A model generated the notes under the pieces. It was not told where the DNA came from, did no database searches, and saw only the letters and a program-made list of their open reading frames with translations. Shown here one piece after another: positions 31,485 to 43,964 of a stretch of DNA of 64,000 nt (positions are counted from its first letter, which is position 1; every line of letters starts with the position of its first letter). Made by a program: the position numbers and the translations under genes. The stretch spans positions 1 through 64,000 of the forward strand of contig NZ_BJZT01000007.1 in the NCBI RefSeq assembly GCF_007992175.1, in the 5' to 3' direction. This DNA comes from Methylobacterium haplocladii. GTDB lineage: Bacteria > Pseudomonadota > Alphaproteobacteria > Rhizobiales > Beijerinckiaceae.

Positions 31485-31757
31485 CTACGATTGGTAATGC
31501 AGGCGGCACGAGGCGATTTCCAGGCCCTGGTCAGCGCCCTTGCCCCCCACGCGATAGACGAGCCGATGGGTTACGGTGATCCTGCGTGACCACCACCCTG
31601 CGAGACGTCCCCTCAGCGGCTCGGGCTTCCCGATGCCTTCGAGCGGGGTTCGTCTTGCATTCGCGATCAGAGCGTTGATCCGATCGACGACATCCGGGTC
31701 CGATTTCTGCCAGTGCAGATAGTCGTCCCAGGCATCGCCCGACCAGATCACCTTCAC
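31485..31757 (-). CDS. yoeB: toxin of the Txe/YoeB family
   Basis: A 90-residue RelE-superfamily mRNA interferase. The YoeB pattern is complete: WSGDAWDDYLHWQ at the start, the catalytic glutamate in GKPEPLRG, arginine in GWWSRRITVTHRLVYRV, and the C-terminal RLHYQS carrying the catalytic histidine and tyrosine. The family cleaves mRNA in the ribosomal A site. Six residues longer than E. coli YoeB. It overlaps the antitoxin gene by four bases, so translation is coupled. Confidence 0.95.
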   Translation of the reverse strand: MKVIWSGDAWDDYLHWQKSDPDVVDRINALIANARRTPLEGIGKPEPLRGRLAGWWSRRITVTHRLVYRVGGKGADQGLEIASCRLHYQS

Positions 31758-32008
31758 GGTTCGATCAGGTCGTGTTCGGTTCCGCGTCCTGCATCGAGTT
31801 CGGCGATCGACCGGAGCAGCCTTTCCGCGTTCACCGGCGAACTCATGAGATGCATCGTCTCGCGAAGCCCTTCGAGTTCCGCCAGCGGCAGGATCACCAT
31901 GTCCTCATGGTTCTGCCGCGTCACGACGAGCTCGGTGCGATCGCTCTCGACGCGGTCGAGATGGGTCGCGAGATTCTTTCGCAGTTCGGTGAAGCCGACA
32001 TGGGCCAT
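31754..32008 (-). CDS. yefM: antitoxin of the Phd/YefM family
   Basis: An 84-residue antitoxin. The N-terminal DNA-binding and dimerisation part has the YefM signature FTELRKNLATHLDRVESDRTE (here slightly split) and the LVVTRQNHEDMVILPLAELEGLRET motif; the C-terminal part (VNAERLLRSIAEL) neutralises YoeB. It is the first gene of the pair. Upstream, at 32024-32041, lies an operator-like TGTACG/CGTACA inverted repeat with a candidate promoter. Confidence 0.95.
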   Translation of the reverse strand: MAHVGFTELRKNLATHLDRVESDRTELVVTRQNHEDMVILPLAELEGLRETMHLMSSPVNAERLLRSIAELDAGRGTEHDLIEP

Positions 32009-32023
32009 GATGTGGATCCGATC

Positions 32024-32041
32024 TGTACGCACTAACGTACA
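32024..32041. promoter_or_regulatory. yefM-yoeB operator candidate (TGTACG-N6-CGTACA)
   Basis: Perfect inverted repeat of six bases with a six-base spacer, 16 bases before the yefM start. In E. coli the YefM-YoeB complex binds repeats with TGTACA cores, so this fits the expected autoregulatory operator closely. Confidence 0.7.
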
Positions 32042-32066
32042 TATGATCGTGTCGCCTTGTCGACAA
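32038..32066 (-). promoter_or_regulatory. candidate promoter of yefM-yoeB
   Basis: On the minus strand TTGTCG (32066-32061) and TATGTA (32043-32038) are 17 bases apart, matching sigma-70 -35/-10 spacing. The -10 element overlaps the operator at 32024-32041, as expected for repression by the antitoxin complex. Confidence 0.55.
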
Positions 32067-32107
32067 GCCGCTGCCGTCGTTGCGGCGACCAAAGAAGCCC
32101 GAAAGAA

Positions 32108-34240: not shown

Positions 34241-34987
34241 TCACGCGTCCTTCGGCATCGCCGACTGGATGAAGCGGTCCGAGCCGAGGTCCTCCTCGTC
34301 GTAGCCCAGCAGTTCGGCGAGGCGGCCGCGGGCGCGGCTGACGCGGCTCTTCACGGTGCCGACCTTGCAGCCCATGATGGTGGCGGCCTCCTCGTAGGAG
34401 ACGCCCTCGGCGCCCACCAGCACCAGCGCCTCGCGCTGGTCCGGCGGCAGCTTGGCGAGCGCGGTCTGCAGGTCCTCGACGTCGAGCCGGTCGCCCTGGT
34501 GCGGGGCGGTGGCGAGGCGGGCGGCGTAGGAGCCGTCCTGATCCTCGACCTCGCGCACCCGCTTGCGGTGGTCCGAGTAGAAGATGTTCCGCAGGATCGT
34601 GAACAGCCAGGCGTTCAGGTTGGTGCCGGGCTGGAAGCGGGCGCGATGCTGCCAGCCCTTCATCAGCGTGTCCTGGACGAGGTCGTCCGAACGCGCGGGG
34701 TTCGAGGTCAGCGACAGGGCGAAGGCGCGCAAGGAGGGCACCGCCGCGAGCAGGCCGTTGCGGAATTCGGGGTCGACCCGCTCGCCCTGCGCCTTGAGCG
34801 CGGCTTCGAGCTTCTCGATGAGGTCGGCGAAGCGGGCCGTGACTTCATCCGGGGTGCCGAGCGCCTCGTAGACGGTGCGCAACTGGTCACCGAGATGGGT
34901 GCGGATGTTGGCCGAGAGGGCCGGACGCCCCTCAGCGCCGTCCTCGGCGGGATGATCGAGGGTGGCGTCGGTCTCGGTGCGGCTCAT
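34241..34987 (-). CDS. NepR-EcfG fusion: general stress sigma factor with N-terminal anti-sigma-like domain
   Basis: A 248-residue protein. Residues 77-228 are an EcfG-type (ECF15) sigma factor: region 2 has SDDLVQDTLMKGWQHRARFQ and NAWLFTILRNIFYSDHRKR, region 4 has LPPDQREALVLVGAEGVSYE and GTVKSRVSRARGRLAEL. Residues 27-66 (THLGDQLRTVYEALGTPDEV then TARFADLIEKLEAAL) match NepR, the small anti-sigma factor of the alphaproteobacterial general stress response, normally a separate gene next to ecfG. There is no start codon between the two parts, so they form one chain. phyR and other stress-response genes are not nearby. Confidence 0.85.
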   Translation of the reverse strand: MSRTETDATLDHPAEDGAEGRPALSANIRTHLGDQLRTVYEALGTPDEVTARFADLIEKLEAALKAQGERVDPEFRNGLLAAVPSLRAFALSLTSNPARSDDLVQDTLMKGWQHRARFQPGTNLNAWLFTILRNIFYSDHRKRVREVEDQDGSYAARLATAPHQGDRLDVEDLQTALAKLPPDQREALVLVGAEGVSYEEAATIMGCKVGTVKSRVSRARGRLAELLGYDEEDLGSDRFIQSAMPKDA

Positions 34988-35167
34988 GATGATTTAAGCG
35001 TGCTTCGGTCGGTGGGCGTCGGGCGGCGCGGTCCGTGTCCCCTGCGAGACGGAGGGAACCTTACCGCATCGCGGGGCCGAGCGCATCCCGAGGGGCGGGG
35101 TCGGCGGGGAGCTTGACCGGACTTTCCGACTTTTTCTGGCCGCCGGGCGGCGACGATCGGGAATGCC

Positions 35168-43361: not shown

Positions 43362-43964
43362 ATGCGCATGGAAAGGCGCGCCGGATCAGCCAACGGGCTC
43401 GAAGAGACGCTGTCGGCGGCGATGGCGGCGGCGCAGGCCGGCGACGCCGATGCCTATCGCGATCTGCTGCGCGCCTGCATGCCGGTGATCGCGGCGGCGG
43501 CGCGGGCGAAGGGCATCCGGGGCGAGGCGGTCGAGGACGTGGTGCAGGACACGCTGATGACGGTGCACCGGGCTCGGGCGAGCTACGATCCGGCCCGGCC
43601 GTTCCTGCCCTGGTTGCGGGCCATCGCGCAGCGGCGGGCCGTCGACCTGCTGCGCCATCAGGGCCGGCGCCCGAAGGAGGCGCACGATCCGATCGCCTAC
43701 GAGGGCCGCGCCGACGACAGCCAGCCCGCAGCGGGCCAGGGCGTCGAGGAGCGCGAGCGCAACTCCCGGCTGGCACGGGCGGTCGCGGCCCTGCCCGAGG
43801 GGCAGCGGCAGGCCGTCGAGCACCTGAGCCTGCGCGAGCGTTCCCTGACCGAGGCGTCCGCGCTGACGGGGCGCAGCACCGGCGCGCTCAAGGTCAACCT
43901 CCACCGCGCCTTGAAGGCGCTGCGATCGGCGCTCGCCCAGGATAGGAGGGATGGGGATGTCTGA
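43362..43964 (+). CDS. ECF sigma factor (SigF/NrsF-associated type)
   Basis: About 200 residues. Region 2 reads RGEAVEDVVQDTLMTVHRAR (residues 55-74) with FLPWLRAIAQRRAVDLLR, and region 4 LPEGQRQAVEHLSLRERSLT with GALKVNLHRALKALRSAL. It is transcribed with the following NrsF-like gene, which begins 14 bases before its stop, so the two are translationally coupled. Such sigma factors respond to heavy metals or oxidative stress in relatives. Start ATG 43362 is uncertain; ATG 43368 is two codons downstream. Confidence 0.9.
   Translation: MRMERRAGSANGLEETLSAAMAAAQAGDADAYRDLLRACMPVIAAAARAKGIRGEAVEDVVQDTLMTVHRARASYDPARPFLPWLRAIAQRRAVDLLRHQGRRPKEAHDPIAYEGRADDSQPAAGQGVEERERNSRLARAVAALPEGQRQAVEHLSLRERSLTEASALTGRSTGALKVNLHRALKALRSALAQDRRDGDV

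Follow-up and report, generated by a model that had tools for sequence, protein, structure and literature searches.

The stretch of DNA analysed here (the window) comprises the first 64,000 nucleotides of contig NZ_BJZT01000007.1 of Methylobacterium haplocladii. It carries ecfG1, an open reading frame that begins with an ATG and encodes 248 amino acids plus a stop codon (Table 1). Upstream of this ATG the frame stays open for two more codons only, so the start lies no further up. The in-frame start codons nearest the junction between the N-terminal extension and the sigma factor are a TTG at residue 36, in the NepR part, and a GTG at residue 83, in sigma region 2; none occurs at residues 66-77 of the window's copy. 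The GTG is found in 65 of 81 aligned ecfG1 sequences (the window's copy and 80 loci kept from 90 relatives in a scan of a genome collection). Within the 20 bases that precede the ATG (34988-35007 of the window), a Shine-Dalgarno-like 4-mer was seen in just one of the 80 orthologues, and leaderless, Shine-Dalgarno-independent or differently started translation are candidate readings of this scarcity.

Table 1. Features of the ecfG1 locus, with positions in the window.
Feature	Position	Strand	Evidence
ecfG1, EcfG/ECF15 sigma factor of 248 aa, NepR-like domain at the N terminus	34241..34987	-	ORF, profile matches, genus conservation
NepR-like helix pair, residues 26-67	34787..34912	-	PF18557 at 30-63, hhalign, both AlphaFold2 models, invariant core
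Helix 1, residues 26-42; helix 2, residues 46-66 or 67	within helix pair		AlphaFold2 models
Linker, residues 68-72 (about 5-6 residues)	34772..34786	-	gap between helices in both models; L60-to-P84 spacing
Sigma region 2 domain, residues 73-147	34547..34771	-	PF04542 at 84-145; 5UXX chain A match from 74
Sigma region 4 domain, residues 170-227	34307..34480	-	PF08281 at 172-223

Elsewhere in the window, a second and distant ECF-type sigma factor is encoded on the plus strand at 43398-43952 (31% identity to query P0002, E 1.3e-8). A YefM/YoeB-like antitoxin-toxin pair of 90 aa and up to 112 aa was recognized by eye on the minus strand at 31485-32092.

The 248-aa protein scores 236.5 bits with NF009199, the NCBI model for EcfG-type sigma factors, and passes the cut-off of 219. 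Sigma70 region 2 (PF04542) and region 4 (PF08281) are found by Pfam at residues 84-145 and 172-223 respectively. The closest solved relative is RpoE of Bartonella quintana in complex with NepR (5UXX), which matches residues 74-230 with an E value of 2.7e-52. By its ECF sigma regions 2 and 4, the protein thus belongs to the EcfG/ECF15 group. The gene is identified as EcfG1, the principal sigma factor of the general stress response in Methylobacterium, and this name is used because the gene is conserved genus-wide, with orthologues carrying the NepR-like extension in 110 of 111 genus genomes and at 80 named loci. The usual, non-defining setting of an ecfG gene, beside nepR or phyR and with an EcfG-type promoter, is not seen in the window. 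The EcfG-type promoter motif matches once in the whole window, against a chance mean of 1.27, at a distance of more than 4 kb from ecfG1. In Methylorubrum (Methylobacterium) extorquens AM1, ecfG1 is likewise described as lying away from the phyR-nepR locus without an EcfG-type promoter upstream (PMC4814048); the absence of promoter and neighbours is therefore no argument against EcfG membership.

When the single protein was searched, the NepR model PF18557 matched residues 30-63 with 17.9 bits (E 0.0024), which does not reach the Pfam cut-off of 25.7. The domain is therefore named NepR-like rather than NepR, and because this score is weak, homology was tested with profiles. At E<=0.1, PF18557 was found in 40 of 41 non-redundant sequences, including the window's copy, with a best value of 2.9e-9. 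Alignment of 22 extensions with 28 free NepRs by hhalign, as the one pair of profiles compared, gave a probability of 98.6% (E 6e-16). A free NepR profile aligned with the whole of EcfG1 picked residues 22-63 at 97.2%, and control windows from the sigma-4 region gave 0.3%. The conserved NepR core, I/L-G-x2-L-R-x2-Y followed by R-F-x2-L-x3-L, is present in the extension, with L at position 32 in place of the I of NepR. In a comparison of 33 NepR columns, for which cut-offs and one gap were chosen by the analyst, 12 were at least 80% conserved among 31 free NepRs of the family; eight of these 12 are at least 99% fixed in the EcfG1 extension, where four are expected (hypergeometric p 0.004). Column conservation in the free NepRs and the extension is correlated (Spearman 0.40, p 0.02). 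The P-x-P-D/E-R loop of NepR has lost its first proline and its acidic residue, and the second proline is present in 62 of 81 sequences. These profile comparisons identify the N-terminal domain of EcfG1 as a descendant of NepR.

An earlier, sequence-only reading of this DNA had described a NepR pattern followed by an EcfG sigma domain in one chain. The pattern and the sigma domain are both borne out by the profile and structure matches given above, and their union by the single 248-aa frame that lacks a start codon between residues 66 and 77. Its assignment to Methylobacterium was also correct. The profile search for NepR similarity, which had been named beforehand as a possible refutation, gave significant similarity instead.

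The extension is unevenly conserved across the 81 sequences. Thirteen positions (I28, R29, H31, L32, L36, R37, Y40, R52, F53, L56, L60, E61 and L64) are invariant in all 81, and G33 is the same in 80. Variation is free in the N-terminal tail (residues 1-23) and in the loop at residues 45-51, and the sigma region is nearly unvarying. Within the extension, pairwise dN/dS, pooled over 41 of the 81 sequences by simple counting without a tree, was lowest in helix 2 (0.17), followed by helix 1 (0.46), the N-terminal tail (0.79) and the loop (1.44). The corresponding values were 0.06 for sigma region 2 and 0.04 for sigma region 4, and the extension as a whole gave 0.45 versus 0.04-0.06 for the sigma domain. 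This pattern indicates that the NepR core of EcfG1 is under purifying selection. Spacing was compared in 21 of 29 fused proteins. The distance from L60 to P84 is 24 residues in 18 of the 21, 23 in two and 26 in one. The loop between helix 1 and helix 2 measures 10 residues in 15 of the 21 (range 8-13) and is thus nearly as constant as the linker, which makes constant linker spacing a weak argument. For many fused proteins, identity to the window's copy at the junction drops to 25-45%.

Two AlphaFold2 runs of EcfG1, based on alignments of 41 and 52 sequences, both predicted the two helices at residues 26-42 and 46-66/67 followed by a short linker. Global confidence was low (pTM 0.45 and 0.38), and mean pLDDT in the helix 1 region was 51-58. 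The sigma domains of the first model, taken as a whole, did not superpose on 5UXX (rmsd 18 A), and Foldseek matched the same model to sigma factors with misplaced domains. Confident docking of the extension onto its own sigma2/sigma4 was seen in neither of these low-confidence models. Docking of the NepR-like helices in a swapped dimer would be possible.

Of 111 genus genomes, 110 carry the uninterrupted fusion (E<=1e-100, each match reaching query residue 17 or lower), and G375 is the sole own-genus genome without a match. The 80 named records (kept from 90) all belong to Methylobacterium, Methylorubrum or metagenome-assembled genomes named for these or for Methylobacteriaceae/Beijerinckiaceae, with 82-96% identity over the matched segment. 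The family and the class were scanned with a 24-row profile spanning the NepR-sigma junction. Unbroken full-length fusions occur in at least 44 of 298 family genomes, in four genus groups. Among the matches listed, none of which was weaker than 7.8e-8, fusions were found in 25 of 25 own-genus genomes, in 17 genomes of group g32, and in one genome each of g36 and g17. Any match at all was listed for 23 genomes of g32, including the 17 with the full fusion; the remaining listed family matches cover the NepR part alone or contain a stop. In 385 genomes of the class, with up to 15 first-look candidates scored per genome and hence a miss possible, the fusion was found only in the two own-genus genomes of the sample, and six other genomes matched NepR alone or in separate pieces. 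Used alone as a query, the 57-aa extension is too short and specific: of the 249 genomes searched within the order, it recovered five, all from the own genus. The fusion is also encoded in one frame on two plasmids, one from Microvirga sp. VF16 and one from M. terrae. The M. terrae junction is identical to a g32 junction at 39 of 63 positions, so that g32 may be Microvirga.

The same fusion, which the sequence-only reading had proposed to look for in related genomes, is thus present well beyond this genome. Its suggestion that the gene is a paralogue with a special threshold is rejected, as the gene found in 110 of 111 genomes is the conserved EcfG1 of the genus.

To examine the origin of the fusion, a tree was built from the sigma domains of 75 EcfGs (26 fused and 49 free, retrieved loci only). 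The label fused or free requires two changes on this tree, and an AU test does not reject a single clade of all fused proteins (p-AU 0.35), with inference of a single origin limited by long-branched fused paralogues. One ancient nepR-ecfG fusion event is possible. In genome G036, a lone TAG is all that interrupts the shared frame in which nepR and ecfG match the profile, and canonical nepR-ecfG neighbours suggest a route by which fusion may have occurred. Such neighbours in other genera, with nepR immediately upstream of ecfG and at times in frame behind a stop as in G036, would also fit an assembly or frameshift artefact that joined nepR to ecfG in the present genome. The same unbroken frame, however, recurs in the 80 named records and, with no internal stop, in 110 of 111 genus genomes. 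A frameshift separating the two parts is thereby excluded, and the artefact can practically be dismissed.

At E<=1.3e-53, five EcfG-type genes were found in the genome of M. haplocladii. Four of these have an in-frame extension, namely the window's copy, two genes on contig C39 and one on C42; two of the three fused paralogues gave no match to PF18557 at E<=0.1. The EcfG on contig C31 has no extension and overlaps by 4 bases with a separate nepR before it. This canonical nepR-ecfG pair (C31:21108-21808; L012, L005) coexists with the fused copies. All five own-genus genomes on the tree have an EcfG of the C31 clade that lacks the extension, and an adjacent nepR was seen in all three of these genomes that were searched with PF18557. 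On contig C17, phyR is divergent from a full NepR gene, and the own-genome EcfG search found no ecfG on this contig. The phyR-nepR intergenic region contains one EcfG-type promoter motif per strand, in agreement with the phyR/nepR promoters reported for M. extorquens (PMC4814048).

Four more NepR-like ORFs were observed on contigs C49, C42, C45 and C15 (L013, L015, L016 and L017), with scores of 18.9-24.0 bits as whole proteins, below the Pfam cut-off; the one on C49 exceeds this cut-off in the genome search together with its neighbours. They resemble the additional NepRs described in M. extorquens, which include two PhyR-binding proteins (PMC4814048). At C1:22893-23597 (L014, L229), a NepR-like helix pair (PF18557, 21.7 bits, below the cut-off) lies N-terminal to a receiver domain (PF00072, 41.6 bits). 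Homologues that reach into the NepR part were found in five of five own-genus genomes in a 119-genome sample of the family. This NepR-REC fusion protein could be a phosphorylation-controlled NepR, and none of the titles listed by a literature search (10 of 19) concerned such a protein.

The NepR-EcfG fusion itself is already known from the close relative M. extorquens. The EcfGs of strain AM1 have been reported to carry about 55 extra N-terminal residues that resemble NepR, may reflect an ancient fusion, and are absent elsewhere except in Methylobacteriaceae (PMC4814048). The same source credits the first notice of the extension to a 2009 PNAS paper. AM1 EcfG1, as described there, shares with the window's protein this NepR-like extension of about 55 aa and its conservation across Methylobacterium, and nothing essential was seen to differ. 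A second AM1 isoform lacks 14 residues and keeps the NepR core (PMC4814048); that isoform starts near residue 15, a place at which the window's orthologue lacks an in-frame ATG. Added here to the known fusion are the selection on the NepR core, the partial loss of the Pro-x-Pro loop, the test of origin and the distribution counts.

M. extorquens is the species in which the partner switch was originally identified (PMC8103513), and the grip of NepR has been compared to that of CnrY, which clasps sigma 2 and sigma 4 with a pair of helices (PMC4598750). Both parts of EcfG1 have homologues in the canonical nepR-ecfG operon that works with PhyR. There they are two chains, whereas EcfG1 combines anti-sigma and sigma factor in one chain and free NepR is also kept. 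Two chains likewise make up the B. quintana RpoE-NepR complex in 5UXX, whose sigma domain aligns with EcfG1 residues 74-230. In IutY of Pseudomonas putida, the sigma domain comes first in the chain, and the anti-sigma domain is from a family unrelated to NepR. IutY resembles EcfG1 in that a single polypeptide holds both a sigma and an anti-sigma domain, but its anti-sigma domain is periplasmic and activation occurs by Prc/RseP proteolysis (PMC5411451).

The reading preferred here, to which we give about an even chance, is that the helices of the fused NepR descendant mask the groove at which NepR binds the sigma domain of EcfG1. The two NepR-like helices would fold back onto a sigma domain, either their own or that of a neighbouring copy, and fill the groove otherwise used by free NepR and, in part, by RNA polymerase. 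The outcome would be a weak self-mask, to be displaced by free NepR and core polymerase. Such occlusion in cis might lower basal activity or tune the NepR/PhyR switch, and the mask could be relieved by polymerase, NepR or PhyR. Indirect support comes from the binding and two-hybrid data published for truncated EcfG1 (PMC4814048). NepR bound in vitro only to EcfG1 truncated of its extension, which a groove occupied in cis would explain, and two-hybrid signals appeared only with truncated forms, strong for EcfG1 and weaker for EcfG5. Homology to NepR, selection on the NepR core and the helix pair in both AlphaFold2 models also favour this reading, and the constant linker spacing does so weakly. 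According to the same report, both natural EcfG1 isoforms, which retain the NepR core, were pulled down with NepR in vivo and complemented a sextuple ecfG mutant, so that any self-mask cannot be tight. The partial loss of the P-x-P-D/E-R loop and the lack of confidence in the AlphaFold2 docking also speak against self-masking.

The sequence-only reading had proposed that control would lie within the molecule. Free NepR and PhyR are both present in the genome, and control is therefore not only intramolecular. That EcfG1 is a self-contained switch, with a cis NepR domain lifted by phosphorylated PhyR and free NepR as a second brake, appears unlikely. The fused helices might instead act in trans as a decoy, mainly on PhyR, where phosphorylated PhyR would bind them and so free the sigma domain, as the sequence-only reading had suggested, or they would compete with free NepR for PhyR. 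The kept NepR core positions, the presence of phyR and nepR in this genome and the two M. extorquens NepR homologues that bound PhyR and interacted with no EcfG tested (PMC4814048) are consistent with this role. We nevertheless hold it to be improbable, as no PhyR-EcfG1 interaction was found in the sections consulted of PMC4814048 and PhyR may bind less well to an extension that has lost part of the P-x-P-D loop. A somewhat doubtful explanation is that the extension is a relic of the fusion, its regulatory role gone, and now serves only as a folded cap or to stabilize the sigma factor. Its much faster evolution than the sigma domain (dN/dS 0.45 versus 0.04-0.06) would agree with this, as would the greater distance of the paralogues from NepR, given the two of three that PF18557 does not match. 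The 13 positions invariant in 81 of 81 sequences and the dN/dS of 0.17 in helix 2 argue otherwise, as does the altered NepR binding reported on removal of the extension (PMC4814048).

The unexplained domain of EcfG1 sits on the sigma factor that is central to the partner switch. Should it function as a self-inhibitor, the standard model of three proteins would be incomplete for Methylobacterium. If PhyR lifts the cis domain, the stress response of Methylobacterium would be a one-chain sigma/anti-sigma switch under sigma mimicry.
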